Assembly (NCBI GenBank): GCA_007127335.1
Contig: SKZO01000074.1
Coordinates: 1 to 40,618, forward strand
Origin: Spirochaetales bacterium
GTDB taxonomy: Bacteria; Spirochaetota; Spirochaetia; DSM-27196; SLST01
DNA length: 40,618 nucleotides
Direction: 5' to 3'
Shown: positions 410 through 17,579 of the stretch, piece by piece
Layout: every line of letters begins with the position of its first letter
Position numbering within the stretch: position 1 is the stretch's first letter
The notes under the pieces: generated by a model
What the model saw: the letters and a program-made list of their open reading frames with translations, nothing else
What the model was told of the DNA's origin: nothing
Database searches by the model: none
Program-made: the position numbers and the translations under genes

Positions 410-1743
410 TGACGGACCGGTTCATGCGCGTCCTGACGCTTGCCGACTACAACACACGGATCGTGATGTTCGGGACCGTCCTGCTCGGGATCGCGGGCGG
501 CGTGATCGGTACCTTCCTGTTGCTGCGTCGACGCGCCCTGCTGGCGGACGCCGTGAGCCACGCGGCGTTGCCGGGCGTGGCCGGGGCATTTCTCGTTGCG
601 GTCGCGATGGGAGTGGACGCCCGCAGTCTCCCGCTGCTCCTCGCCGGGGCGCTCGTGTCCGGGCTGCTGGGCATGGGATGCGTGATGCTGATCACCCGCT
701 TCACCCGACTCTCGCAGGACGCCGCGCTGGGGATCGTGCTGAGCGTCTTCTTCGGGTTCGGCGCTGCGCTTCTGGGAATCGTGCAGAAGATGCGTGGGGC
801 ACAGGCGGCCGGGCTCAACTCGTTCATCTATGGCTCTGCGGCGTCGATGATCCGGACCGACGCTCTTCTGATCGGGCTTGCGGCGGCCGTCGTTATCGTG
901 GTAGCGGCACTCCTGTTCAAGGAGTTTCGCCTTCTCACTTTCGACGCGGCGTTCGCCGCCGTCGACGGCTGGCCGGCCGGGCGTCTCGATCTCCTGCTGA
1001 TGTCGCTCGTCGTCGCGATCACGGTGCTCGGGCTTCAGGCGGTGGGCATCGTGCTCGTCATCGCGATCCTGATCGTCCCCGCGGCCTCCGCCCGCTTCTG
1101 GACCGAGAGCCTGCGCGTCATGGTGCTCGTGGCGGCACTGATCGGGGCCGTCGGGTCGTATCTGGGCACGGCGATCAGCGCGCTCGCGCCGCGCCTGCCC
1201 GCAGGCGCGGTGATCGTCGCCGCGCTCGGGACCCTCTTTCTCGTGAGCTTCCTCTTCGGCGGCAGTCGAGGCGTGGTTCGCGCGGTGATCACGCGCGACC
1301 GTGCCATCCGAAGGACCGTCCGGCAGAACCTGCTGCGGATGCTCTATGAGTGCGAGGAGTCCGGAATGGACCACGATGCCGACGAACAAATGCGCTATCT
1401 GTCCGCCTCCCGCCGGTGGACCGCCGCGCGGCTGCGCTCTGCGCTGGGCCGGCTCGAGCGCGAAGGGCTCGTGTACCGGGTTCCCGGTGAGCCGTGGCAG
1501 CTGACGCGTACCGGGCGCTACGAGGCAATGCGCGTCACCAGGAATCACCGGCTGTGGGAAGTCTACCTGCTCGAGTACGCGGATACCGCCGCGGCTCATG
1601 TCGACCAGGGGGCGGACTACATCGAACATGTACTCGGGGACGCGCTCGTCGCCGAGCTCGAAGAGGCGGTACCCGGATACGGCAGGACTCTGCCGCCGAG
1701 CCCTCACTCCCTCGTGCAGGACGAACAGGGAGGCGCCTCGTGA
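406..1743 (+). CDS. Metal ABC transporter permease (ABC-3 family) with C-terminal DtxR-like winged-helix/metal-binding domain
   Basis: N-terminal ABC-3 permease ([41 protein letters not shown]); C-terminal [26 protein letters not shown]...[19 protein letters not shown] resembles DtxR/MntR; 4-nt overlap with upstream ATPase gene. Confidence 0.93.
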
Positions 1744-3047
1744 TCTGGACCTCGCTCGACTCCTGGATCGTGATCGCGGCCGCGCTCGCCGGCGCCTCCG
1801 CCGCTCTCGTTGGAGCCTTCCTCGTGCTGGAGAAGATGAGCATGATGGGCGATGCGATCAGCCACGCCGTTCTGCCGGGCATCGCGATCGCCTTCATCCT
1901 GACCGGGAGCAGGGTGGGCGGCCCGGTTCTCGTGGGCGCTGCAGGCTTCGGGGTTCTCGCTTCCATGCTCGTCCATGTCATTCGCCGCGCCGGACGGCTC
2001 GACGACGGAGCGGCCATGGGCGTGGTCTTCACCGTGCTCTTCGCAGTGGGGCTCATCCTGATCGAGCAGGCGGCCCGCCACGTGGACATCCACCCGGATC
2101 ACGTGCTGTTCGGCTCGGTGGAGCTCGTGCCGCTCACCGTCGTCGAAATTGGATCGTTGGTGATTCCCCGTGGGGTGGTAGTGCTCTCCGCCGTGCTCCT
2201 GGTCGATCTGGTGGTCGTGATCCTCTTCTTCAAGGAGCTGCGCCTCGTGACTTTCGACCCGGCGGTCGCCACCACGCTCGGGTTCAACGCAACGTGGCTG
2301 CACTACCTCCTGATGACGCTCGTGGCGCTGACCACCGTTGCCGCCTTTGAGGTAGTGGGGAGTATTCTTGTGATTGCGATGCTCGTCGTTCCCGCGGCGA
2401 TCGCGCATCTGGTCACTCGTCGGCTTGCACCCTTTCTCTTCGTCAGCGTGGGTTCGGCCCTCCTTGCCGCCGTTCTCGGGCACGTGGCGGCCATCACTAT
2501 ACCGCCGCGATTCGGCTTCGAAGACACCAGCACCGCCGGGACGATGGCGACCGTGCTCGGGCTGCTTTTCTTCGTCGCGCTGCTCGCCGCGCCGGAGCGC
2601 GGGTTGCTCACCAGGGCCTGGACGATGCTCTCGAGGCGGATGATCGTACGGACCCAGGATGTCCTCGGGCTTCTTGCGCGGGCATCCGAGCGTCCCGACC
2701 GCGACGGTCTCTCTCCGAGCGAGTTGCGCATGGCGCATCGGTCGCCTTTTGCCGGGCGAGCGACAGGTCTGTGGATCGGGCTCTTTCTTCTGCGTGTTCG
2801 TGGGCTCGTGCGCTCGGACGGCGGGCGGTACCATCTGACAGACCGAGGGCGTCCCGCAGCCAGGCGCGTCCTGCGCGTGCATCGCCTCTGGGAACGGTTC
2901 TTTCACGACGTCGGCAAGGTGAGGCTCGTCGATCTCCACCCGGCCGCCGACTACCTCGAGCACTACACCGATTCCAGGCTCCGTGACGAGCTGGAGAAGG
3001 AGTTCGCGGGAAGCGATACCGATCCGCGCGGAAATCCCCTGCCGTGA
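1740..3047 (+). CDS. Second metal ABC transporter permease (ABC-3 family) with C-terminal DtxR-like domain
   Basis: ORF track starts at 1494 but GTG at 1740 overlaps the upstream TGA and gives the usual N-terminus ([47 protein letters not shown]); C-terminus LTDRGRPAARRVLRVHRLWERFFHDV...AADYLEHYTDSRLRDELEKE. Confidence 0.92.
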   Translation: MIWTSLDSWIVIAAALAGASAALVGAFLVLEKMSMMGDAISHAVLPGIAIAFILTGSRVGGPVLVGAAGFGVLASMLVHVIRRAGRLDDGAAMGVVFTVLFAVGLILIEQAARHVDIHPDHVLFGSVELVPLTVVEIGSLVIPRGVVVLSAVLLVDLVVVILFFKELRLVTFDPAVATTLGFNATWLHYLLMTLVALTTVAAFEVVGSILVIAMLVVPAAIAHLVTRRLAPFLFVSVGSALLAAVLGHVAAITIPPRFGFEDTSTAGTMATVLGLLFFVALLAAPERGLLTRAWTMLSRRMIVRTQDVLGLLARASERPDRDGLSPSELRMAHRSPFAGRATGLWIGLFLLRVRGLVRSDGGRYHLTDRGRPAARRVLRVHRLWERFFHDVGKVRLVDLHPAADYLEHYTDSRLRDELEKEFAGSDTDPRGNPLP

Positions 3048-3836: not shown

Positions 3837-4657
3837 TGCTCCCGTCCTGCCGCGGCTCTGCCGACTTCGTAGAAGAGGATGCTCGCCGCGCAGGCGAGAT
3901 TGAGTGAGTCAACCCGGCCGCGCAGGGGAATCGCCACTACCTCGTCGACTACCTCCCGCAGGTTCGCGGACAGCCCGGTCGCCTCGTTCCCGAATACCAC
4001 GGCGAGCGGAGGCGACAGCCGCGCATCGCTCAAGGCGGTCGCGCCGCCCGAGTCGGTCCCGACGACCCGCAGCGGAGGGTTGCCGTCCCTCATGGTTTGG
4101 AGCCACGCGATGAGCCGTTTCGCCGACGGCTCGTGGACGACAGGGGTAGAGAAGCAGGCGCCAAGGCTCGCGCGTATGACCCGCGGGTCATAGATATCGA
4201 CGCCGTGTCCCGTAGTGACGACCGCGTGGATACCAAGGCCATCCGCTGACCGGACGAGCGAGCCGAGATTCCCGGGATTCGCGGGCCGATCGACGACTGC
4301 GACCGTGAAGTCTCTGCCCGGCACGATGTCCCGGAGCTCGCACCGCGGCCGTGCGGCGATGACGATGAGCTCCGATGGGTCCGCCCGGTCAGAGAGCCGC
4401 TCCATGAGATCCGGGGCGATCTCGTAGCCGGTCGCCGGTTCGAGACGATCGATCGTGTCAACCGTCCATCCGGAGAGTCGGGCCTTCCGCGGGAAGGCGA
4501 CTGCGTGGGTGGCAGGCTGTGAGTCTGCGAGCGCGTTGATTGGCGCGACTCCCTCCACGAAAATCGTGCCCCGCTTCGCCCGCTTCTGGCGATTATCACG
4601 CAGCGAGACGAGGACCTGAAAGATGTCATTCTCCGATGAGATCCGCTGCACCTTCAT
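3833..4657 (-). CDS. TrmH/SpoU-family RNA methyltransferase
   Basis: SPOUT motifs VDRPANPGNLGSLVRSADGLGI, VFGNEATGLS, IPLRGRVDSLNLACAASILFYE. Confidence 0.93.
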   Translation of the reverse strand: MKVQRISSENDIFQVLVSLRDNRQKRAKRGTIFVEGVAPINALADSQPATHAVAFPRKARLSGWTVDTIDRLEPATGYEIAPDLMERLSDRADPSELIVIAARPRCELRDIVPGRDFTVAVVDRPANPGNLGSLVRSADGLGIHAVVTTGHGVDIYDPRVIRASLGACFSTPVVHEPSAKRLIAWLQTMRDGNPPLRVVGTDSGGATALSDARLSPPLAVVFGNEATGLSANLREVVDEVVAIPLRGRVDSLNLACAASILFYEVGRAAAGREQ

Positions 4658-4735
4658 CGCGCCCCATCATAGTGATCACGGCCCCGGCCGTCGAGTCGAG
4701 CCATGAACGACTCCCTCCATGAACCGCTCGCGCCG

Positions 4736-4764
4736 TTGCCTGTTCAAGGAACCTGTGCTATCTT
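4736..4764 (+). promoter_or_regulatory. Putative sigma70-type promoter of the flavin-lipoprotein/rnf locus (-35 TTGCCT, 17 nt, -10 TATCTT)
   Basis: TTGCCT 4736-4741 and TATCTT 4759-4764, spacing 17 nt, about 35 nt before the preferred start at 4799. Confidence 0.4.
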
Positions 4765-4798
4765 GTCGGCAATAATTCCAGGAACTGGGGAGTTTCGA

Positions 4799-5863
4799 GT
4801 GATACCAAGACGTTTTTTGGCCGTCCTGGCCGTGGCTGGCACGATCGTACTGTTCGCTGCCTGCGAACCTGAGCGGGTTGTGATCGAAACCGGACCGGCG
4901 GGTTTTGCGGGGCGCCACGTGGGGTATTCCTGGTCCGGAGAAGCCAGGGGGACCGCCTTCGAGGACGCCGGGGCGTACATCGAGACGGTGTTGGAGCTGG
5001 ACGAGGACGCCAATATCCTCTCCGCGAGTATGCGATACTGGCAGCGTGTGGACGGCTTCTGGACGACGCGACAGAGCGGAAACGCGCTGGTGACCGTGGA
5101 TTTCTCCGTAGATCCCACCCCCGCCACGCTCAGCAGCCCCTTTGTTCCCGGAGACTCGATGTTCTCCATCTATACGGTGAACCTGATGTCTCTCTACGCG
5201 GTGGCGGTCGATGAAGACGGCACAGCGGCGGTCACCGTCGTCGAGCCGCTGACCCGGTACCGCTTCGAGATGAAGTTTCCGCCCGGATTCGACTATCGCG
5301 TGCAGATGAACGAGCTCACCCTCGGCAGTGGCCTCGTGGTTCCAACCGTGCGGACCGCCGGCGGGGCGTTTCTCTCTCCGGAGAGCTGGGACGAGCTTGC
5401 CGACAGGCACATCTTCGACCTGCACATGTACTCTCACGTTCTGAACGATGTCGGCGTCTTTGCGGATATCGACGGGCGTTCGAGCGTTCGCAACTTTCTG
5501 TCCTCGATGGGAGTCGGATTCGACGGTGATCGCCCCGTGGCCATGGCGCTGCAGTACGGGTACTTCGGTATCGGAGGCTGGAAGGGGAACTACGATGCGA
5601 TTGCGACCTACCTCGTTGGCAGGAACGCGCGCACGTTGACGTCGCTCGTCGACTGGTCTCCCGAGCGCTACCGGGCAGCGATCAACGACCTCAATCAGTT
5701 CGGTGTCGACGTCCCTACGGGAGCGACGCGAACCGTGCAGGACTCAGCCGACGGCATCTCCGGCGCGACCGTGCGGATGTCTCGGGAGTCGACCTCCTAT
5801 CAGCGGGCCCTCGTTGATGCGGGTATCCTCTCGGAGGATGATGTGATCGTCGGCAGGTTTTGA
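4799..5863 (+). CDS. Lipoprotein with C-terminal FMN-binding-like region (DVPTGAT and DGISGAT motifs)
   Basis: GTG start at 4799 preferred over 4703: gives VIPRRFLAVLAVAGTIVLFAAC, a lipobox-like signal, with GGGGAG upstream; two Dxx[ST]GAT motifs near the C-terminus; stop overlaps rnfC ATG. Confidence 0.8.
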   Translation: MIPRRFLAVLAVAGTIVLFAACEPERVVIETGPAGFAGRHVGYSWSGEARGTAFEDAGAYIETVLELDEDANILSASMRYWQRVDGFWTTRQSGNALVTVDFSVDPTPATLSSPFVPGDSMFSIYTVNLMSLYAVAVDEDGTAAVTVVEPLTRYRFEMKFPPGFDYRVQMNELTLGSGLVVPTVRTAGGAFLSPESWDELADRHIFDLHMYSHVLNDVGVFADIDGRSSVRNFLSSMGVGFDGDRPVAMALQYGYFGIGGWKGNYDAIATYLVGRNARTLTSLVDWSPERYRAAINDLNQFGVDVPTGATRTVQDSADGISGATVRMSRESTSYQRALVDAGILSEDDVIVGRF

Positions 5864-7197
5864 TGAGCGACCGCGTCAAGAGGTTCCCGATCGGGGGAAC
5901 GCACCTTCCCGAAGAGAAGGGGCTGACCTCAGAGTCTCCCATCGTCTCTCTGCCGCCGCCGTCGGAGGTTCTGGTGCCGCTCAAACAGCACATAGGGCTG
6001 CCGGTGCGTCCGGCAGTGGCGGTGGGCGATCGTGTTCACCCCGGCAGCCTGATCGGCGCCGAAGCGGACGGGCTGCGTGCGAGGGTGCACGCCGGCGTGA
6101 CAGGCGAAGTGGTGGATCTCACCGACGCGCCCCTCCCTGACGGGAGCAGGGTTCCCGCCGTCCGGATCCGGGTGGACCGGGGCTCGGGCGAGACGGCGCA
6201 GGATCTCGATCCGCTTGATGTTGATATGCTCGACGACGAGGCCTTTCGTGAAGCCGTGATCTCCCGCGTGGAGGAGGCGGGGATCGTCGGACTCGGCGGA
6301 GCAACCTTTCCCACGCACGTGAAGCTCGCGACGAGCGACAAGATAGACACGGTGATTGTCAACGGCGCCGAATGCGAGCCGTACATAACGGTGGACGACC
6401 GGTTGATGCAGGAAGAGGCGCAGAAGGTGTTTCGCGGGCTCGACATCGTCCGGAGGACCGTTGGCGCGGAGCGCGGGTTCGTGGCGTGCGAGACCAACAA
6501 ACCTGCGGCTCTCAGTCAGCTCCGCGAGATCGCCTCCGGCTTTCCCGGGATAGCGGCGCAGGCGCTCGATACCCGCTACCCGCACGGGGCCGAGAAGCAT
6601 CTGATCAAAGCCGTGCTCAACCGCGAGGTGCCCATGCGGGCTCTGCCCGGTGCCGTGGGCGTGCTCGTCAACAACGTTCAGACCGTCTGTGCCATAGCCG
6701 ATGCCGTTGATCGCGGCCGGGTACTTTACGAGCGGGTTGTCACGGTCAGCGGACACGGTGTCACGACGCCCCGGAACCTGCGCGTGCCGCTTGGCGCCGC
6801 GGTCTCCGACCTCATTGCCTTCTGTGACGGTCCGTCGGTCGATGAGCCTGCGGTCATCGTAGGAGGGCCCATGACCGGGATGCGGGTTACCGACCTTTCG
6901 ATTCCCGTGACCAAGGCAACGAGCGGGCTCATCCTGCTCACGGACTCCGAGTACCGCGGCAGTCAGCATATGGCCTGCATACGATGCGGACGATGCGTCG
7001 AGGTCTGTCCCATGTATCTGCCTCCAAACCGCATGACCGCCTACATCAACAACGACATGGTCGAGGAAGCGATAGGCGCGGGGCTCGACGCATGTATCCT
7101 GTGCGGTGCCTGCCAGTTCGTCTGCCCGTCGAAGCGACCGCTTCTCGAGTGGATCAACCAGGGTAAGGCCGCCATGGCCGCCAGACGCCGACGATAG
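5863..7197 (+). CDS. rnfC: Electron transport complex subunit RnfC
   Basis: GGTHLPEEKGLT, GLGGATFPTHVKL, VNGAECEPYITVDDRLM, two CxxCxxCxxxCP motifs (CIRCGRCVEVCP, CILCGACQFVCP). Confidence 0.95.
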   Translation: MSDRVKRFPIGGTHLPEEKGLTSESPIVSLPPPSEVLVPLKQHIGLPVRPAVAVGDRVHPGSLIGAEADGLRARVHAGVTGEVVDLTDAPLPDGSRVPAVRIRVDRGSGETAQDLDPLDVDMLDDEAFREAVISRVEEAGIVGLGGATFPTHVKLATSDKIDTVIVNGAECEPYITVDDRLMQEEAQKVFRGLDIVRRTVGAERGFVACETNKPAALSQLREIASGFPGIAAQALDTRYPHGAEKHLIKAVLNREVPMRALPGAVGVLVNNVQTVCAIADAVDRGRVLYERVVTVSGHGVTTPRNLRVPLGAAVSDLIAFCDGPSVDEPAVIVGGPMTGMRVTDLSIPVTKATSGLILLTDSEYRGSQHMACIRCGRCVEVCPMYLPPNRMTAYINNDMVEEAIGAGLDACILCGACQFVCPSKRPLLEWINQGKAAMAARRRR

Positions 7198-7207
7198 GGG
7201 TACGGTG

Positions 7208-8917
7208 ATGAACGAGAACGTCCGACGAGCCGGTCCGCACATCGAGAGCCGTGATTCGGTGCGTCGAAACATGTGGGAGGTGTCCGCCGCTCTGCTGCCG
7301 GCGATCGCGGCCGCGGCGCTCTTCTTTGGCCCGTACTCGCTCTACCTGATATTCGCCTCCGCGGTCGCGGCCGCGGTCTTCGAGCGCCCGTTCACTCCCG
7401 GTGGATTCTCCGTCAGGCAGCCGCTCGGCGACGGGAGCGCCTTCCTCGCCGGACTGCTCTTCGGCCTCACGCTCGCTCCCGGCACTCCCTGGTGGATACC
7501 ATTCTTTGGTGCTGTGATCGTGGTCTTCGTCGGGAAGCAGGCATTCGGCGGCATTGGACATAACGTGTTCAACCCCGCGCTCGTCGCGAGGGGCATACTC
7601 CTGCTCGCGTACCCGGCTCTCGTGACCGAATGGCGGGTGCCGCTTGACCACGATGTGGTGACCGCGGCGACTCCTCTCGAGGGAGCGGCTGTGTCGTACC
7701 TCGATCTCTTTCTTGGCAGCGTTCCGGGGAGCATCGGCGAGGTGTCCGCTCTCGCGCTTCTCATTGGAGGGGCCTATCTCATGGCCCGTGGGTTTGTCGG
7801 CTGGCGAATCACGCTCTCCTATCTCGGGGCCGCCGCGCTGACGGCCCTTGCGCTCGGGATTGACCCGCTGTTCACGATCCTTTCGGGGAGCATCATGTTC
7901 GCCGCGATCTTCATGGCGACCGATATGGTGACCTCGCCGGTCGGTCGTGATGCACGGCTCGTGTACGGAATCGGGTGCGGAGTTCTGACGGTCCTGATTC
8001 GCCGGTTCACCGTGTACCCGGAGGGTGTTACCTTCGCAGTACTGTTCATGAACGGGGTGACGCCGCTTATCGACGTCACGATCGTCAACCCGTTCTTCGG
8101 GCAGGCGGAGAAGCGGCGCCGACGCCTGTTCGCGATCTTCGCCGCGGTCGCCATTGTTGGGGTGGGCGCCGGCGTCGGCTTTGGCGCCTCGTCGCTGTCG
8201 GACTTCGCCGGCGCGTACTACGTTGACGGCACCGTGCGCCGTGACATTCGAGCCTTCTTCCCGGATGCGCGCTACGCGCTGCAGTATCCGGCCGCACGGG
8301 ACACCGTCTTCGCGGAGCAGGTCTACCGCCAGCGCGAGCCGGTCGGGTACCTCGTGTACTCATCGGCGCAGGGGTACCGCAGTGAGATACGTGTCGTGCT
8401 CGCTCTGGACATGGATGAGCGCATCATCGGGCTGCGAGTCGTCGAGCACGATGAGAGCGCCACGCTCGGCTCGCTCGTTCGACGGCCGTCGTTCCTGAAC
8501 CAGTTCCTTCGCCGTTCCACGGACGATCCGTCGGCGGTGGTGGAGACCCTTGAGGCGATCAGCGGGGCCACGGCATCGTCGCGGGCCGTGGCGCAGGCGG
8601 TGGAGCAGGGCCTGCTCTTCCGGACAGAGCCGGAGAGGCCGCGAGCCCGTCTCGAGCCGCCCGCGGACGGCGCCTTTGTCGGAACCGGAGGAGGGTACGG
8701 CGGTTCGATCCGGGTGCAGGTAACTGTCGAGGATCTGCGGGTCGCGTCAATAGAGGTGCTTTCACACTCCGAGACTCCGGACATTGGAGCACCGGCCCTT
8801 GGTCGCATCGCCGACTCGGTCGTCGCGGCTCAGAGTATGGACGTTGACGTGGTGTCCGGAGCGACCGCATCGAGTCGCGGCATTCTCGCCGCGATCGCCG
8901 ACGCACTCGGCCGGTAG
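7208..8917 (+). CDS. RnfD-RnfG fusion: RnfD/NqrB-like membrane domain followed by two FMN-binding-like domains
   Basis: RnfD features (GKQAFGGIGHNVFNPALVARG, MATDMVTSPV), then a TM helix and extracytoplasmic region with EAISGATASS and DVVSGATASS; ATG at 7208 preferred over ORF-track start 7106. Confidence 0.92.
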   Translation: MNENVRRAGPHIESRDSVRRNMWEVSAALLPAIAAAALFFGPYSLYLIFASAVAAAVFERPFTPGGFSVRQPLGDGSAFLAGLLFGLTLAPGTPWWIPFFGAVIVVFVGKQAFGGIGHNVFNPALVARGILLLAYPALVTEWRVPLDHDVVTAATPLEGAAVSYLDLFLGSVPGSIGEVSALALLIGGAYLMARGFVGWRITLSYLGAAALTALALGIDPLFTILSGSIMFAAIFMATDMVTSPVGRDARLVYGIGCGVLTVLIRRFTVYPEGVTFAVLFMNGVTPLIDVTIVNPFFGQAEKRRRRLFAIFAAVAIVGVGAGVGFGASSLSDFAGAYYVDGTVRRDIRAFFPDARYALQYPAARDTVFAEQVYRQREPVGYLVYSSAQGYRSEIRVVLALDMDERIIGLRVVEHDESATLGSLVRRPSFLNQFLRRSTDDPSAVVETLEAISGATASSRAVAQAVEQGLLFRTEPERPRARLEPPADGAFVGTGGGYGGSIRVQVTVEDLRVASIEVLSHSETPDIGAPALGRIADSVVAAQSMDVDVVSGATASSRGILAAIADALGR

Positions 8918-8926
8918 GGGGAGAGC

Positions 8927-9520
8927 ATGGTGCATGATCAATCGCTACGGATCGAACGAGTCGCTCTTCTCGGCCTGGTCACGCTGCTCGGCGCAACGGG
9001 CGACCTTGCGACGGCTCTGGCCGCACTAGGGATCTCTGCTGCTTCAGCGCTCGTGGTCTATGCCGCATGGGCGCTGGTGCGGCTTGCCGCGTCGATCCCT
9101 GCCGCCGCTCGATGGGCGGCGTGTTTCGCCGTCGGTTTCGCCGTCTCGTGGGCGCTTGCATCGGTTGTCCCTTACGTCGTGCCGATCCGCGACGGCGCGG
9201 TGCTCTTCCTCAGGATCGCGGGGCTGATGCCAATCGTCTACTACGCAGCCGGTGACGGCGCCACGGGCCGTGACGTCATCGTCTCGTGGGTACAGTTCGC
9301 CCTGCTCATGGCGGGCGCAGGCGTAGTGCGTGAGTTCTTCGGGCGAGGCGCGCTGCTCGGCTATCTGCCTGCGGGGAGCTTCACGATCCGCGCGGGCTTC
9401 CTCGCATCGCCGACAGGTGCGTTTCTGCTGGTTGCCACGGTCGTGCTCGCAGCCAGGATCGTCTCCGCAGCGCGTGCGAGACAGACGCCCGGCCGTGCTC
9501 AGGGAGGTGGCGATGAGTGA
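8927..9520 (+). CDS. RnfE-like integral membrane subunit (divergent, lacking conserved cysteines)
   Basis: Six-TM-like ~197 aa protein with VVREFFGRGALLGYLPAGSF resembling RnfE; position in rnf gene order. Confidence 0.82.
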   Translation: MVHDQSLRIERVALLGLVTLLGATGDLATALAALGISAASALVVYAAWALVRLAASIPAAARWAACFAVGFAVSWALASVVPYVVPIRDGAVLFLRIAGLMPIVYYAAGDGATGRDVIVSWVQFALLMAGAGVVREFFGRGALLGYLPAGSFTIRAGFLASPTGAFLLVATVVLAARIVSAARARQTPGRAQGGGDE

Positions 9521-10052
9521 CATTCCACGGGTCTTCCTGGACGCCATGCTGATCGAGAACCCGGTCGTGATGACATTCGTCGGGGCCCTCATCGCAGTGG
9601 TGCTTCCCCGTTCGGCTCGAAGCTCGTACCTGCCGGCTCTGCGATTCGCCGTGACCCTGTTTGTCGTTGGGATCGCAGGCGGCGGAATCGTGGCGGCCTC
9701 CTCGTCGACGGCGGCGCCGGCGGTCCACATCGTCGTGGGCCTCCTGGGGCTTGGATCGCTGCTCGCCGTCGGGGAGTTGCGTGGCGAATGGCTCGGGATG
9801 CCGCAGGCCGTGCTCGCGATGGCGCCGCTCGTGGGCGTGCAGATGCTGGTGGCGACCCGCGATGATTTCGGCCTCGTTGTTGCCGCAGCGGGAGGTAGCG
9901 CCATCGGGTTCGCCGTTGTGTATGTGCTCCTCGGCGCGATTCGTGAGTCATCGCGTATCTCGGAGACCACGGACACGTTCAAGACCAATCCGGTGGTGCT
10001 CTTCTCGCTCGCCGTTTTCGCGATCGCATTCGCCGGATTCCTGTTCTGGTGA
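9513..10052 (+). CDS. RnfA-like integral membrane subunit (divergent, no cysteine)
   Basis: LIENPVVMTFVGALIAVVLP in place of the RnfA NN-VL-GLCP segment; C-terminal GFAVVYVLLGAIRESSR...LFSLAVFAIAFAGF as in RnfA; ATG at 9513 overlaps upstream stop. Confidence 0.83.
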   Translation: MSDIPRVFLDAMLIENPVVMTFVGALIAVVLPRSARSSYLPALRFAVTLFVVGIAGGGIVAASSSTAAPAVHIVVGLLGLGSLLAVGELRGEWLGMPQAVLAMAPLVGVQMLVATRDDFGLVVAAAGGSAIGFAVVYVLLGAIRESSRISETTDTFKTNPVVLFSLAVFAIAFAGFLFW

Positions 10053-10089: not shown

Positions 10090-11094
10090 ATGGCAGATCC
10101 AGCGGCAGACCTTCGGACTGAATACCTCGGGCTCAGCCTGCGGAATCCCGTAGTCGCGTCGAGTTGCGGCATCACCGGCTCGCTCACCGGCGTGTGCCGG
10201 TGCGCGGAGGCGGGCGCCGGGGCGATCGTCCTCCAATCGTTGTTCGAGGAACAGATCGTCGCTGAGCTCGGTGGTGCGGCAGCCGGAGCGGGCGCCGCCT
10301 TTCCGGAGGAGGCGCGGGCGTATCTGCAGAGTCTTGCGCACGGCTGGGGCCCGCAACCCTATCTGAAGCTGATCGAGAATGCCAAACGCGCCGTTGACGT
10401 TCCCGTGATCGCGAGTGTGAACTGTACATCAGGTGACGCGTGGACGGACTACGCCTCGCAGATCGAATCCGCCGGCGCCGATGCGCTCGAGCTCAATATC
10501 GCGCTGATGCCCGTGGGCGCGGACGAGACGGCGGATGAGATCGAAGAGACAATGGCCTCGATCGTCCGTGCCGTTCGCAGGCAGACACGGTTGCCGATCA
10601 CCGTCAAGTTGGGTCCGTACTTCACCGCCCTGCCGCACGTCGTCTCCAGGATCGTCGACGCCGGCGCCGATGGCCTGGTTCTCTTCAACCGCTTCTACCA
10701 GTTCGACATCGACCCGGTCGCGCTCACGGCGGTTCCGGGAAACCGGTACAGCACCTCCAACGAGCTTCAGCTGCCGCTTCGCTGGGTGTCCATCCTCTCC
10801 CCCCGGGTGTCATGCGACCTTTCGCTGTCAACCGGAGTTCATACCGGGACGGACGCCGCGAAGGCAATGGTCGCCGGCGCCCGCGTCGTGCAGATTGCCT
10901 CTGCACTCTATACCAGGAAGATCGAGGCTCTCTCGGCCATCGTCTCCGAGCTGGACCGATGGCTGTGCGAGAACGGGTATGCCGGCGTCGGCGACGCGCG
11001 GGGGCGCTTTGCGACCTCCGGGCACTATCGTTCGAAGGATCTCGAGCGGCTGCAGTACATCAAGGCCCTGACGCGAGAGGCCGACGAGGGGTGA
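10090..11094 (+). CDS. Dihydroorotate dehydrogenase-like (FMN-dependent TIM barrel) protein
   Basis: YLGLSLRNPVVASSCGITGS, SIESAGADALELNI-type segment, ITVKLGPYFT, ADGLVLFNRFYQFDID, LSTGVHTGTDAAKAMVAGARVVQIASALY. Confidence 0.9.
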   Translation: MADPAADLRTEYLGLSLRNPVVASSCGITGSLTGVCRCAEAGAGAIVLQSLFEEQIVAELGGAAAGAGAAFPEEARAYLQSLAHGWGPQPYLKLIENAKRAVDVPVIASVNCTSGDAWTDYASQIESAGADALELNIALMPVGADETADEIEETMASIVRAVRRQTRLPITVKLGPYFTALPHVVSRIVDAGADGLVLFNRFYQFDIDPVALTAVPGNRYSTSNELQLPLRWVSILSPRVSCDLSLSTGVHTGTDAAKAMVAGARVVQIASALYTRKIEALSAIVSELDRWLCENGYAGVGDARGRFATSGHYRSKDLERLQYIKALTREADEG

Positions 11095-11911: not shown

Positions 11912-14329
11912 ATGAGCGAACGGCGACTGACCCAGCTTCTGCCGGTGCTCGCGCTCGGCTTCGCCGGCCAGATTGGACAGGTTGTCCTTCTACGCGAGTG
12001 TCTGATGGTCTTCCACGGGAACGAGCTCAGCCTTGGCATCATCCTTGGAGCGTGGACCGTCTGGGTGGGAATCGGCAGTCGGATCGCCGGGAGAGTGCGG
12101 GAACAGACCGACGAGGCGCTCGCTATGAGCGTGATCGCGGCGGCCGTTCTCGTGGTGTTCCCGGCGACGATCGTCGCGATTCGAGCCCTGCGGTCGTTCT
12201 TCCCGGTGCAGCCGGGGGCCTACCTCTCAGTCGTCGACATGCTCATCGCGGCTACCCTGGTGACCGCCCCGGTGGGCCTGCTCCTCGGTGCCCAGTTCGT
12301 CATGCTCGCCCGCGCCTGGCGGCGGCGCGACCGGGCCGCTGACACAGCGGCGGCGGACAAGACCTACGTCGCCGAAGCGCTCGGAAATGTGATGGGCGGA
12401 CTGCTCTTCGCCCTCCTTCTCGTACACCTGTTCGGCTCGTTTCACGCTGTGGTCGGCGTGGGGCTCGTCATGGCCGTTGCCGGTCTGCTGAGCTCTCAGG
12501 CTCGCAGGAGGCCTATCCTGTGGGCCGCTCTGATCGTCGGGATCGTGAGTCTGCCCGCGCTGCCGCTGCTCGACTCGTGGGGATATCAGCTGCAGTGGCG
12601 CACGCTCACCCCACGGCACGAGCTGGTGAGCGTACGCCACTCCCGTTACGGCGCCGTCAGCGTCCTGCGCCGGGAGGAACAGTACAGCTTCTTCCAGAGC
12701 GGCAATTTGCTGTTCTCGCTGGCCGGACTCGAGGCGTCGGACCCGGCCCTCGAGGAGCAGGATGCCGTCGTGTCCGCCCATCTTGCGATGGCGCAGCATC
12801 CGGGCCCACGCCGGGTGCTGCTCGTGGGAGGCGGAATGCGTGGCCTGCTCCGCGAGGTTGTCCGGTATCCGGTGGATCGCGTGGATTACATGGAGCTCGA
12901 TCCCGTCGTCACCTCGACCGCCGTCGAGTACGCCGGCGAGCAGACCCGCCGAGCTCTCGAGCGAGAGAATGTGGTACTGACGCACGGGGACGGCAGACTC
13001 CTGCTGCGTCAGACCGACGAACGGTACGACCTGGTTTTCGTCGATGCGCCCGATCCGTCGACGGCGGTGCTCAATCGTTACTACACCGTTGAGTTCTTCC
13101 ACGAGGTGGCCGATCGCCTCGCGGAAGACGGCGTGCTTGTCATCACTGCCGGCTCGACTGCCGACGCGAGGGGGATCGAGATCGCCAACCGGAACGCAAC
13201 GATCTTCCACACCCTCCGCCGCGTGTTCGCGCACGTGCTCGTCGTGGGAGAGCGGAACCTGCATTTCTTCGCGACCAACTCGCCCGGCACGATATCAGAG
13301 GAGGCGGCCGTCCTGATCGCTCGCTATCATCGTTCCGGCGTGGCGACTCCCGGGTTCTCTCCCCGCCAGTTCGACATCCTGCTCGAACCGGGACCGCTGC
13401 GGCGCATCAACTGGATCCTGCGCCATCACGGGCGCTCCGACGACGCACACCTGTCGGCCCCGGACACGGGGCCGCTGTTCGCTCCGGCCGTCGCAGAACA
13501 GGAGCTTGGGGAGCCCGCTCTGCCGTCTGTGTACGAGCGGTACTTCATTAACTCCGACTTCCGTCCGATTGGTTATGTGCATACGCTTGCGTACTGGAAC
13601 CAGCTCACCAGGGCGGCTCACGCCGACGCTCTGAGAGCCGTGCTGCGTACCAGGCCGTGGTGGATCGTCCCGCCCGTGGCTATCGCGCTCCTGCTCGCGC
13701 TGCTGGTCCCGCTTCTGCGACCCGCATCCCCGCAAGCCACGGTTGGGCGGTACCCGCTTCTGTTTGCGGTGTTCACGACGGGCCTGTCAACGATGTCGCT
13801 GCAGGTTGCCTTACTCTTCGGTTTCCAGTCGGTCTACGGATTCGTGTACGAGATGGTCGGTCTGATCGTCGCCGGGTTCATGGCCGGTCTGGCGCTCGGC
13901 GCCTGGTGCGTCCACCGCTACGTGCGTGACCGCGCGAACCCGCGACTGCTGATGGGAGTGCAGCTCACGATTGCCATCTGCGCCGCGCTCATCGCGCTCG
14001 CACTGCCCGCAACGGCCGGCGTCGAGTCGGCGGCGATTCGTTTCGCCTTCTTCCTTCTCGTGACCTTTGCCGCGGGCTTTCTCAACGGCGTCGACTTCCC
14101 CATCGCGGTCGCCCTCTGCCTGAAGACCGGCGGTCGTGCCGAACGTGCGACCGGGACGGTCTACGGACTCGAGCTCTTCGGCGCCTGCACCGGATCGCTC
14201 ATCGCGGGGATCGTCGTCGCTCCCGTGCTCGGTATCGTAGCGGCCTGCCTGCTCGCCGCCATTGCCAACGGCACCGCGTTTTTGGTACTCCTGATAGGGA
14301 GGATGGTACATGCAGTACGAGAGGTCTGA
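11912..14329 (+). CDS. Multi-TM protein with central spermidine synthase-like domain
   Basis: Hydrophobic helices at both ends; central SpeE-like Rossmann fold (YGAVSVLRREEQYSFFQSGNLLFS, VLLVGGGMRGLLREVVRYPVDRVDYMELDP, HGDGRLLL, YDLVFVDAPDPSTAVLNRYYTVEFF). Confidence 0.9.
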   Translation: MSERRLTQLLPVLALGFAGQIGQVVLLRECLMVFHGNELSLGIILGAWTVWVGIGSRIAGRVREQTDEALAMSVIAAAVLVVFPATIVAIRALRSFFPVQPGAYLSVVDMLIAATLVTAPVGLLLGAQFVMLARAWRRRDRAADTAAADKTYVAEALGNVMGGLLFALLLVHLFGSFHAVVGVGLVMAVAGLLSSQARRRPILWAALIVGIVSLPALPLLDSWGYQLQWRTLTPRHELVSVRHSRYGAVSVLRREEQYSFFQSGNLLFSLAGLEASDPALEEQDAVVSAHLAMAQHPGPRRVLLVGGGMRGLLREVVRYPVDRVDYMELDPVVTSTAVEYAGEQTRRALERENVVLTHGDGRLLLRQTDERYDLVFVDAPDPSTAVLNRYYTVEFFHEVADRLAEDGVLVITAGSTADARGIEIANRNATIFHTLRRVFAHVLVVGERNLHFFATNSPGTISEEAAVLIARYHRSGVATPGFSPRQFDILLEPGPLRRINWILRHHGRSDDAHLSAPDTGPLFAPAVAEQELGEPALPSVYERYFINSDFRPIGYVHTLAYWNQLTRAAHADALRAVLRTRPWWIVPPVAIALLLALLVPLLRPASPQATVGRYPLLFAVFTTGLSTMSLQVALLFGFQSVYGFVYEMVGLIVAGFMAGLALGAWCVHRYVRDRANPRLLMGVQLTIAICAALIALALPATAGVESAAIRFAFFLLVTFAAGFLNGVDFPIAVALCLKTGGRAERATGTVYGLELFGACTGSLIAGIVVAPVLGIVAACLLAAIANGTAFLVLLIGRMVHAVREV

Positions 14330-15455
14330 TACGGATCGGCGAGACTTCCTGAAGGCGGGGGCGGCAGGCGCCTGCGCGCTTGCGCTCGCCGGGCTTTTCG
14401 GTGCGCCGCGTCGCGGTCAGGCGCAGTCGGCCGAGTTCGGGCTCATCCGCCGCAAACGCTCTCCGTGGTTCCGCAGACACGATGCACGGCATCTGGAGTG
14501 TACGCTCTGTCCAAAGCGGTGCCGAATCGCGCCCGGGCGCCGCGGCGTGTGTCGTGTGCGCGAGAATCGTGGCGGAGAGATGTACACGATGGTGTACGGA
14601 AACCCCAGCCTCGTCCAGATCGACCCGGTGGAACGCAAGCCATTTTACCATGTCCTCCCGGGAACCCGGGCGCTCTCGGTTTCCACGAGCGGCTGCCCTC
14701 TCGAGTGCGCGTTCTGCGAGGTGTGGGACATGGCGCTCGTTGATCCGGAGGAGGTGCACGCCTACGATCTGCCGCCGGAGGAGGTGGTCAGGCAGGCGCA
14801 GGCGATGGGCGCGCGGTCGGTGAGTTACGCATTCGGCGAGCCGGTTGCCTTTTTCGAGTTCATGTACGAGACCGCGCGACGCACACGCAGCGCCGGGCTG
14901 CTGAACCTGGTTCACACGAGCGCCTACATCGAGCGCGAGCCGCTCAAACAGCTCGCGGCTACGATCGATGCGGTGAATGTAGACCTGAAGAGCTTTGATC
15001 CGGAATTCTACCGTGACCTCTGCGGAGGCGAGCTGGAGCCCGTGCTCGAGAGTCTGCGGCTGCTCGCCCGCGCCGGTGTGCACATAGAGATCACCAATCT
15101 CCTTATCCCCACCCTGAACGACGACGATGCCCTCATACGGCGAATGGTTCGCTGGATTCGAGACGAGCTCGGACCCGAGGTGCCGCTGCACTTCGCCCGT
15201 TTCTACCCGCTCTACAAACTCGCGAACCTCCCGCCCACTCCCGTCTCAACGCTGAACCGGGCCCGGACTATCGCGATGGACGAGGGACTGCCTTTCACCT
15301 ACGTCGCGAAAGTCACCGGGCATGAAGGCGAGAACACCTTCTGCCCATCCTGTGGCGAGAAGGTCATTGAGCGGCTCGGGTTCGTGATCGAGGCGGTACG
15401 GATGAACAGCGGCGCCTGTGCCTCCTGCGGCGCCCGGATTGGTGGTCTGTGGTGA
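14310..15455 (+). CDS. Radical SAM protein (AmmeMemoRadiSam-type) with N-terminal Tat signal
   Basis: DRRDFLKAGAAGACALALAGLFGAP Tat leader; CTLCPKRCRIAPGRRGVCRVR; CPLECAFC cluster motif; C-terminal CPSC/CASC zinc ribbon. Confidence 0.92.
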   Translation: MQYERSDTDRRDFLKAGAAGACALALAGLFGAPRRGQAQSAEFGLIRRKRSPWFRRHDARHLECTLCPKRCRIAPGRRGVCRVRENRGGEMYTMVYGNPSLVQIDPVERKPFYHVLPGTRALSVSTSGCPLECAFCEVWDMALVDPEEVHAYDLPPEEVVRQAQAMGARSVSYAFGEPVAFFEFMYETARRTRSAGLLNLVHTSAYIEREPLKQLAATIDAVNVDLKSFDPEFYRDLCGGELEPVLESLRLLARAGVHIEITNLLIPTLNDDDALIRRMVRWIRDELGPEVPLHFARFYPLYKLANLPPTPVSTLNRARTIAMDEGLPFTYVAKVTGHEGENTFCPSCGEKVIERLGFVIEAVRMNSGACASCGARIGGLW

Positions 15456-16598: not shown

Positions 16599-17579
16599 TC
16601 ACCACTGCAGCTTGAAGAAGTTTCCCTGATCCGCGTATCCGGCGGTCAATGCTTCCATCCTCTCCATCTGTTCGGACTCGAACGGTGTGAACCTGCGCGC
16701 GATATCCACGTTCTCCTCGAGCTCGCGGATCGTCGAAACCCCCACGATCGCCGTGCTCACCGGAAACGAGAGCGTGTACCCCAGTGCCTCCTCCATCGAG
16801 GTGATCCCGCCCTCGCGGAAGATCCTCCCTACCGCGGCGACCTTCATGGCGATGATCCCCATCTCCCTCGCCGTTGCCTCCTGCAGCAGCTCCGTCTGAA
16901 AGGGGCGTATGTGGAGGTCGGCCGCATTGAGCGACATGAGCAGGCAGTCGAACGGGTGCTCCCGGATCGCGCGGAGCAGAACGCCCGGGTCTCGGTGTCC
17001 GCTGATGCCGGTGAAGCGGATCGTGCCGTCGGCCCGCAAGCGCTCGAGCGCCTGTACGGCTCCTCGATCGCCGAGAGCCTGCGTCACATCCGATTCAGTG
17101 CGCACATTATGGACCTGGTAGAGGTCGATGTGGTCTGTCTGCAGGCGTGCAAGCGACTGCTCGACGAGCCTCATCGTCCCGTCGTAGCTGCGGTCGTGCG
17201 TCTTCGTCGCGAGGAACACCTCATCTCGACGCCGTGCCATGACCTCGCCGATGTTCGACTCGCTGCCGCCGCCGCCGTACCGGGGAGAGGTGTCTATGTA
17301 GTTCACTCCCAGATCCAGAGCGCGGTCGATGATGGCGATTGCCTCGTCGCGGCGATTGCGCATCTGCACCGTGGCCTCGCCGCCAAGACTGAACGCCTTG
17401 ACGGTGACCCCGGTCTTCCCGAGCCGGCGAGCCTGCATTGGGGCGCCGCCGCGGTCCCGGTTCTCCGATCCCCCGCCCGACCCGCGCGCCCATGCGCCGG
17501 ACGCAGGAATACCGAGCGCAGCCGTGGTAACGGCTACTCCCTTGAGAAAATCGCGCCGGTTGATGCGTCGGTCAGTCAT
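16599..17579 (-). CDS. Aldo/keto reductase with N-terminal Tat signal
   Basis: NRRDFLKGVAVTTAALGIPASGAWA leader; AKR motifs GVNYIDTSPRYGGGGSE, FLATKTHDRS, DLYQVHN. Confidence 0.93.
   Translation of the reverse strand: MTDRRINRRDFLKGVAVTTAALGIPASGAWARGSGGGSENRDRGGAPMQARRLGKTGVTVKAFSLGGEATVQMRNRRDEAIAIIDRALDLGVNYIDTSPRYGGGGSESNIGEVMARRRDEVFLATKTHDRSYDGTMRLVEQSLARLQTDHIDLYQVHNVRTESDVTQALGDRGAVQALERLRADGTIRFTGISGHRDPGVLLRAIREHPFDCLLMSLNAADLHIRPFQTELLQEATAREMGIIAMKVAAVGRIFREGGITSMEEALGYTLSFPVSTAIVGVSTIRELEENVDIARRFTPFESEQMERMEALTAGYADQGNFFKLQW

Follow-up and report, generated by a model that had tools for sequence, protein, structure and literature searches.

An Rnf-derived operon of spirochaetes without RnfB and without the cysteine ligands of the RnfA/RnfE cluster: a possible one-armed electron export system

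The window analysed here, a 40,618-nucleotide contig (SKZO01000074.1) of a Spirochaetales bacterium, carries a set of Rnf-derived genes from which RnfB is absent and in which the RnfE-like and RnfA-like membrane subunits have lost the ligands of their intramembrane [2Fe-2S] cluster. Such variant sets are extra, found beside the normal Rnf and Nqr pumps in some uncultured spirochaetes. We consider, with a probability of about 60%, that the variant is a one-armed Rnf in which electrons would travel from NADH through RnfC, RnfD and RnfG to periplasmic flavoproteins, RnfA and RnfE being retained as a redox-inactive scaffold.

The RnfE-like gene is located at 8927–9520 on the plus strand and is overlapped by the RnfA-like gene on the same strand (9513–10052, ATG start at 9513). 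A first-pass annotation of this DNA gave coordinates, reading frames and residues for both genes that are right. It had described a cysteine-free RnfA-like protein and an RnfE-like protein with one cysteine at another site, which is borne out on the translations and is general across orthologues; the single cysteine of the RnfE-like protein, C66 in WAACFAV, is distant from the cluster site. Pfam family PF02508 scores 23.6 bits with the RnfA-like protein, just under its cut-off of 23.8, and gives no match with the RnfE-like protein. Profile-profile comparison relates the variant E to canonical RnfE/NqrD (E-value 7.6e-17) and the variant A to canonical RnfA/NqrE (6.5e-15), crossed pairs being weaker than like with like, and comparison of the variant profiles with PDB chains gives 1.3e-11 for NqrD, 2.4e-11 for RnfE and 1e-12 for RnfA. 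The AlphaFold model of the RnfE-like protein (pLDDT 85.3) has RnfE/NqrD chains as its top fold matches in Foldseek, though the TM-score, about 0.6, is modest. By sequence and by the fold of the E model, both proteins belong to the Rnf-Nqr family (RnfA/RnfE, NqrE/NqrD), and the profile comparisons and the model rule out unrelated membrane proteins.

The cluster of Acetobacterium woodii Rnf is held by C25 and C108 of RnfE and by C25 and C113 of RnfA (PMC11889175). In alignments with PDB chains, the RnfE columns are occupied by V18 and P102 of the variant, the RnfA C25 column by L26, and the RnfA C113 column by a one-residue gap at A104/P105. Alignment with characterised RnfA/RnfE and NqrD/NqrE thus leaves all four cysteine columns without cysteine, as had been proposed from the sequence. 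Position 102 of E is proline in 23/23 orthologues, position 18 is V, L, I or Y, and position 26 of A is L, T or S across its 23 orthologues. A cysteine placed elsewhere at the cluster site, which would have spoken for a retained cluster, was found in none of the 23 E and 23 A orthologues, either at the four ligand positions or in the adjoining columns. Canonical controls from the same phylum, a set that takes in the three other A/E pairs of the window's own genome, have both cysteines in 31/31 RnfE/NqrD and 27/27 RnfA/NqrE proteins. Misalignment of the cluster site is ruled out, as the profile-profile and PDB alignments are ungapped there save at RnfA C113.

The source genome is a draft of 3.86 Mb, 93% complete, and everything presented here derives from the sequences of draft genomes. 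E has orthologues in 24 of the 46 genomes of the order, spread over nine genera and six of the eight families, and the same cysteine-less pair, sought in other genomes, recurs among them. Within a sample of 395 genomes of the phylum, only two, both of the order, exceed 200 bits to the E profile; the next matches reach at most 58 bits, and those checked are canonical proteins with cysteines. A contig scan yielded one close relative, a MAG named 'Spirochaetaceae bacterium'. In the trees of E and of A, all variants fall on one side of a branch with support 100/100, although long branches make the details of both trees uncertain. Pairwise dN/dS among variants is 0.02–0.20, which indicates purifying selection. 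Wherever the contig extends far enough, the gene order is RnfD-RnfG fusion, then E, then A. An assembly error or a pseudogene is ruled out by 23 independent loci and by dN/dS values of at most 0.2. The first-pass annotation had spoken of coordinated loss and not decay, and the presence in six families, the single group per subunit in the trees and the purifying selection all support it.

The RnfC gene (5863–7197, plus strand; TIGR01945, 458.5 bits) keeps the FMN/NADH domain and two [4Fe-4S] motifs, and its product contains GLGGATFP, NGAECEP, CIRCGRCVEVCP and CILCGACQFVCP. The next gene (7208–8917, plus strand) encodes an RnfD-RnfG fusion with two FMN_bind domains (PF03116, 311 bits; PF04205 in two stretches; TIGR01946, 245.8 bits). 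It has the D motif VVTAATP (residues 152–155) and the G motif SGAT at residues 452–455 and 550–553. The RnfD flavinylation motif is kept in most variant members, as are Asn and Asp motifs of RnfD that resemble riboflavin contacts, and RnfG is multiplied across variants, with 2–5 FMN domains fused to RnfD. A search for RnfB finds it neither in the window nor in any sampled variant locus, while the same query does recover it in the canonical operon of the same genome (L051). To our knowledge, RnfB is the only donor to the A/E [2Fe-2S] cluster of Rnf. Behind the variant lies a dihydroorotate dehydrogenase-like flavoprotein gene (10090–11094, plus strand; NF005741, 371.8 bits), found in the same place in 10 of 23 other sampled loci and a candidate for a link to the complex. 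RnfC precedes the RnfD-RnfG fusion in the sampled loci except in one family of the order, f7. The variants of this family (L044:3268-9062, L054, L056 and L045) comprise E, A and an RnfD to which two to five FMN domains are fused, the multiplication reaching four or five in this family; they are without the variant RnfC and adjoin TatC, TatA-like and MobA-like genes. In L045, the place of RnfC is occupied by a 413-residue protein with several 4Fe-4S domains (4128–5366, minus strand). Electron entry in family f7 must therefore differ.

Upstream of RnfC, the gene at 4799–5863 (plus strand; alternative upstream start at 4703) encodes a lipoprotein of no known family, with the lipobox FAAC and two [ST]GAT motifs near its C-terminus. 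It has no match in Pfam or NCBIfam and no useful match in PHROGs or the PDB, its predicted model has a pLDDT of 57, and its profile matches the RnfG domains weakly, the match being confined to the motif. The RnfG domains and the lipoprotein alike thus contain a flavinylation-like motif, [S/T]GA[S/T]. Of the 46 genomes, 17 encode the lipoprotein and 14 of these also carry the variant (P 0.002 by the hypergeometric test, with no correction for kinship); the co-occurrence extends to genomes where the two are unlinked, the lipoprotein lying on another contig in some. This protein is a candidate periplasmic electron acceptor. Near the variant operon of two other families, 421-residue lipoprotein-like proteins with FMN_bind matches (L035:7266-8528 and L038:3514-4776) are further candidates for the acceptor. 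ApbE gave no match in the window's draft genome and is present in 38 of the 46 genomes of the order; the missing match is probably a gap in the draft.

Several other genes of the window deserve mention. Two adjacent ABC-3 metal permeases (406–1743 and 1598–3047) are each fused to an iron-dependent-repressor C-terminal domain. A radical SAM protein of the AmmeMemoRadiSam type (14310–15455) and an aldo/keto reductase (16599–17579) both match a Tat signal, which is unusual for such enzymes. Between the MgtC gene and the radical SAM gene, an 805-residue membrane-spanning protein resembling spermidine synthase is encoded (11912–14329), in an arrangement conserved in two relatives.

In normal Rnf, electrons pass from ferredoxin to RnfB, to the A/E [2Fe-2S] cluster and to the FMN of RnfG, then onward to the FMN and riboflavin of RnfD, to RnfC and to NAD; the RnfC-RnfD-RnfG path is part of the solved Rnf structures and runs both ways (PMC11889175, PMC12174285). 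Rnf has two transmembrane arms, the first made of RnfB and the A/E cluster and the second of RnfD and RnfC. In the variant, the first arm would have been lost as a whole, with the second left intact. NADH would reduce RnfC, with a predicted content of FMN and two [4Fe-4S] clusters, and RnfC would reduce RnfD, likely carrying riboflavin and covalent FMN. Electrons could then pass to the fused and multiplied flavin domains of RnfG, from these to periplasmic flavin-carrying lipoproteins and from there to a further acceptor. RnfA and RnfE may have been retained without redox activity, serving as a scaffold or docking surface, a role for which NqrA, a redox-inactive descendant of RnfC, provides a precedent (PMC4014512). 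The cysteine loss makes sense in the light of the loss of RnfB, the fused and doubled RnfG and the flavin-type lipoprotein, none of which the first-pass annotation had mentioned for this pair, and the build-up of periplasmic flavin domains suggests outward flow. As far as its gene content tells, the complex probably only passes electrons from NADH inside to flavin proteins outside the cell. The first-pass annotation had concluded that electrons must cross the membrane differently or that the complex has another function. With one arm gone and the cofactor motifs of the RnfC-RnfD-RnfG arm intact, no new route across the membrane is needed, and the other function is the likelier. Against the one-armed reading, ApbE was not found in this draft, family f7 is without the variant RnfC, and the purifying selection on A/E is hard to explain by a scaffold role alone.

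The alternative that survives best, though rather unlikely, is that Na+ or H+ is still pumped, the flow through RnfC, RnfD and RnfG being coupled via RnfD or via the cluster-free A/E. Earlier Nqr/Rnf models, discussed in PMC11889175, proposed that the ions pass through RnfD, and R67 of RnfE, which is required in A. woodii, corresponds to R62 of the variant E and is kept in 21 of 23 orthologues. However, Na+ binding in A. woodii needs reduction of the A/E cluster, and RnfD variants were without effect there (PMC11889175). Residues linked to Na+ handling in A/E are partly replaced in the variant, where neither E115 of RnfE nor T110 of RnfA has an equivalent. It is also unlikely that the cluster-free A/E itself forms the ion path, perhaps via RnfG docking, which would make the variant a cation pump of the Rnf family, for Na+ or H+, without an intramembrane metal centre.

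We find it quite improbable that A/E hold another redox cofactor or a differently bound cluster, with the semicircular path kept and a different donor. The purifying selection on A/E would fit such a role, and so would the helix breaks that persist at both former cluster segments in the E model. Against it, no His, Met or Cys able to hold a substitute cofactor is invariant among the 23 orthologues each of A and E, which rules out a cofactor on such conserved residues; invariance is confined to Gly, Pro, Glu, Arg and Asn residues and the RnfE-type RE motif. A donor to A/E, whether RnfB or NqrF, is also missing from the loci.

Periplasmic donors could instead reduce RnfG, with RnfD and RnfC passing the electrons inward to NAD+, as the RnfC-RnfD arm does in the forward Rnf reaction, and exported redox proteins with Tat signals are encoded nearby in the window. 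Flavin donors are, however, usually too positive to reduce NAD+ unless energy is supplied, and the chain of flavin domains and lipoproteins resembles export systems. We therefore give inward flow little credence.

That the set is a spare, non-functional Rnf copy in a genome with three cysteine-containing A/E pairs is very improbable, given the intact motifs of RnfC, RnfD and RnfG, the dN/dS values and the stable gene order kept in six families of the order. The first-pass annotation had foreseen that a second, cysteine-containing pair might reveal the window's subunits as inactive paralogues; there are in fact three further A/E pairs in this genome, all with cysteines, but nothing shows the window's set to be inactive.

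One other set of the same genome (L053:9181-13069, contig C165) has the order RnfC-RnfD-RnfE-RnfA and all four A/E cysteines. No RnfB was found near it, nor an RnfG matching the window's RnfG domains. Its RnfC has NGCESEP in place of NGAECEP and is without the GxGG FMN motif.

The one-armed reading bears on the disputed Na+ pumping site of Rnf/Nqr, placed either at the A/E cluster (PMC11889175) or at RnfD/NqrB (earlier proposals discussed there). As the variant keeps RnfD and the flavin sites and is without the A/E cluster or its donor, it offers a natural experiment on where in Rnf the pumping takes place. Continued pumping would mean that the A/E cluster can be dispensed with, whereas electron export alone would strengthen the cluster-centred model. 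On the one-armed reading, evolution can split the two arms of Rnf and yet retain the A/E subunits. From its gene content, the variant is a candidate system by which these spirochaetes may send electrons into the cell envelope, and it would escape searches that use RnfB or PF02508 as markers.

Compared with Rnf (RnfABCDGE) of A. woodii, Clostridium tetanomorphum and Azotobacter vinelandii, the variant shares homologues in the order C-D-G-E-A, with C, D and G retaining their flavin and Fe-S motifs, but it is without RnfB and the A/E [2Fe-2S] ligands, carries a doubled RnfG as a fusion with RnfD and has an extra lipoprotein. RnfB and the A/E cluster are both defining for Rnf, and since the variant has neither, we do not count it among the Rnf complexes in spite of its Rnf-derived parts. 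Multi-flavinylated RnfG proteins with several FMN domains, as in the variant, occur in RNF clusters and are thought to give electrons a way to other extracytosolic acceptors (PMC8238504). Those clusters are defined by RnfB, whereas the variant has neither RnfB nor the A/E cluster and its FMN domains are fused to RnfD. As that survey called RNF by the presence of RnfB, systems of the variant type would not have been counted there. The one-arm Nqr/Rnf-like systems (Meheust et al. 2021, PMC8238504; Huang et al. 2024, PMC10979944) resemble the variant in having a single transmembrane path and in being thought to send NAD(P)H electrons to extracytosolic flavin domains, and the idea of one-arm export is therefore not new. 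These are two-subunit systems that pair an RnfG/NqrC-like protein with an RnfD/NqrB-like protein carrying a fused PF00175 NAD domain, and they are described as without RnfC, RnfA, RnfE and the RnfD flavinylation site, all of which the variant has; Pfam finds no PF00175 fusion on the variant RnfD, only PF03116 and PF04205. In the open-licence literature searched, as far as its text was available, we found no earlier report of cysteine-less RnfA/RnfE, nor of a one-arm form retaining RnfC and cluster-free A/E. A further parallel is Na+-NQR, whose proposed RnfB-less ancestor (Reyes-Prieto et al. 2014, PMC4014512) lost RnfB from a copied rnfCDGEA operon, like the variant, and which kept one subunit as a redox-inactive scaffold, as proposed here for A/E. 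The variant operon has no NqrF-type gene, and its first subunit is an RnfC with Fe-S motifs, not NqrA. In the evolution of Nqr, NqrF was added and the D/E cluster retained, and RnfC gave rise to NqrA by losing its cofactors (PMC4014512); in the variant, conversely, RnfC keeps its cofactor motifs and it is A and E that have lost theirs.
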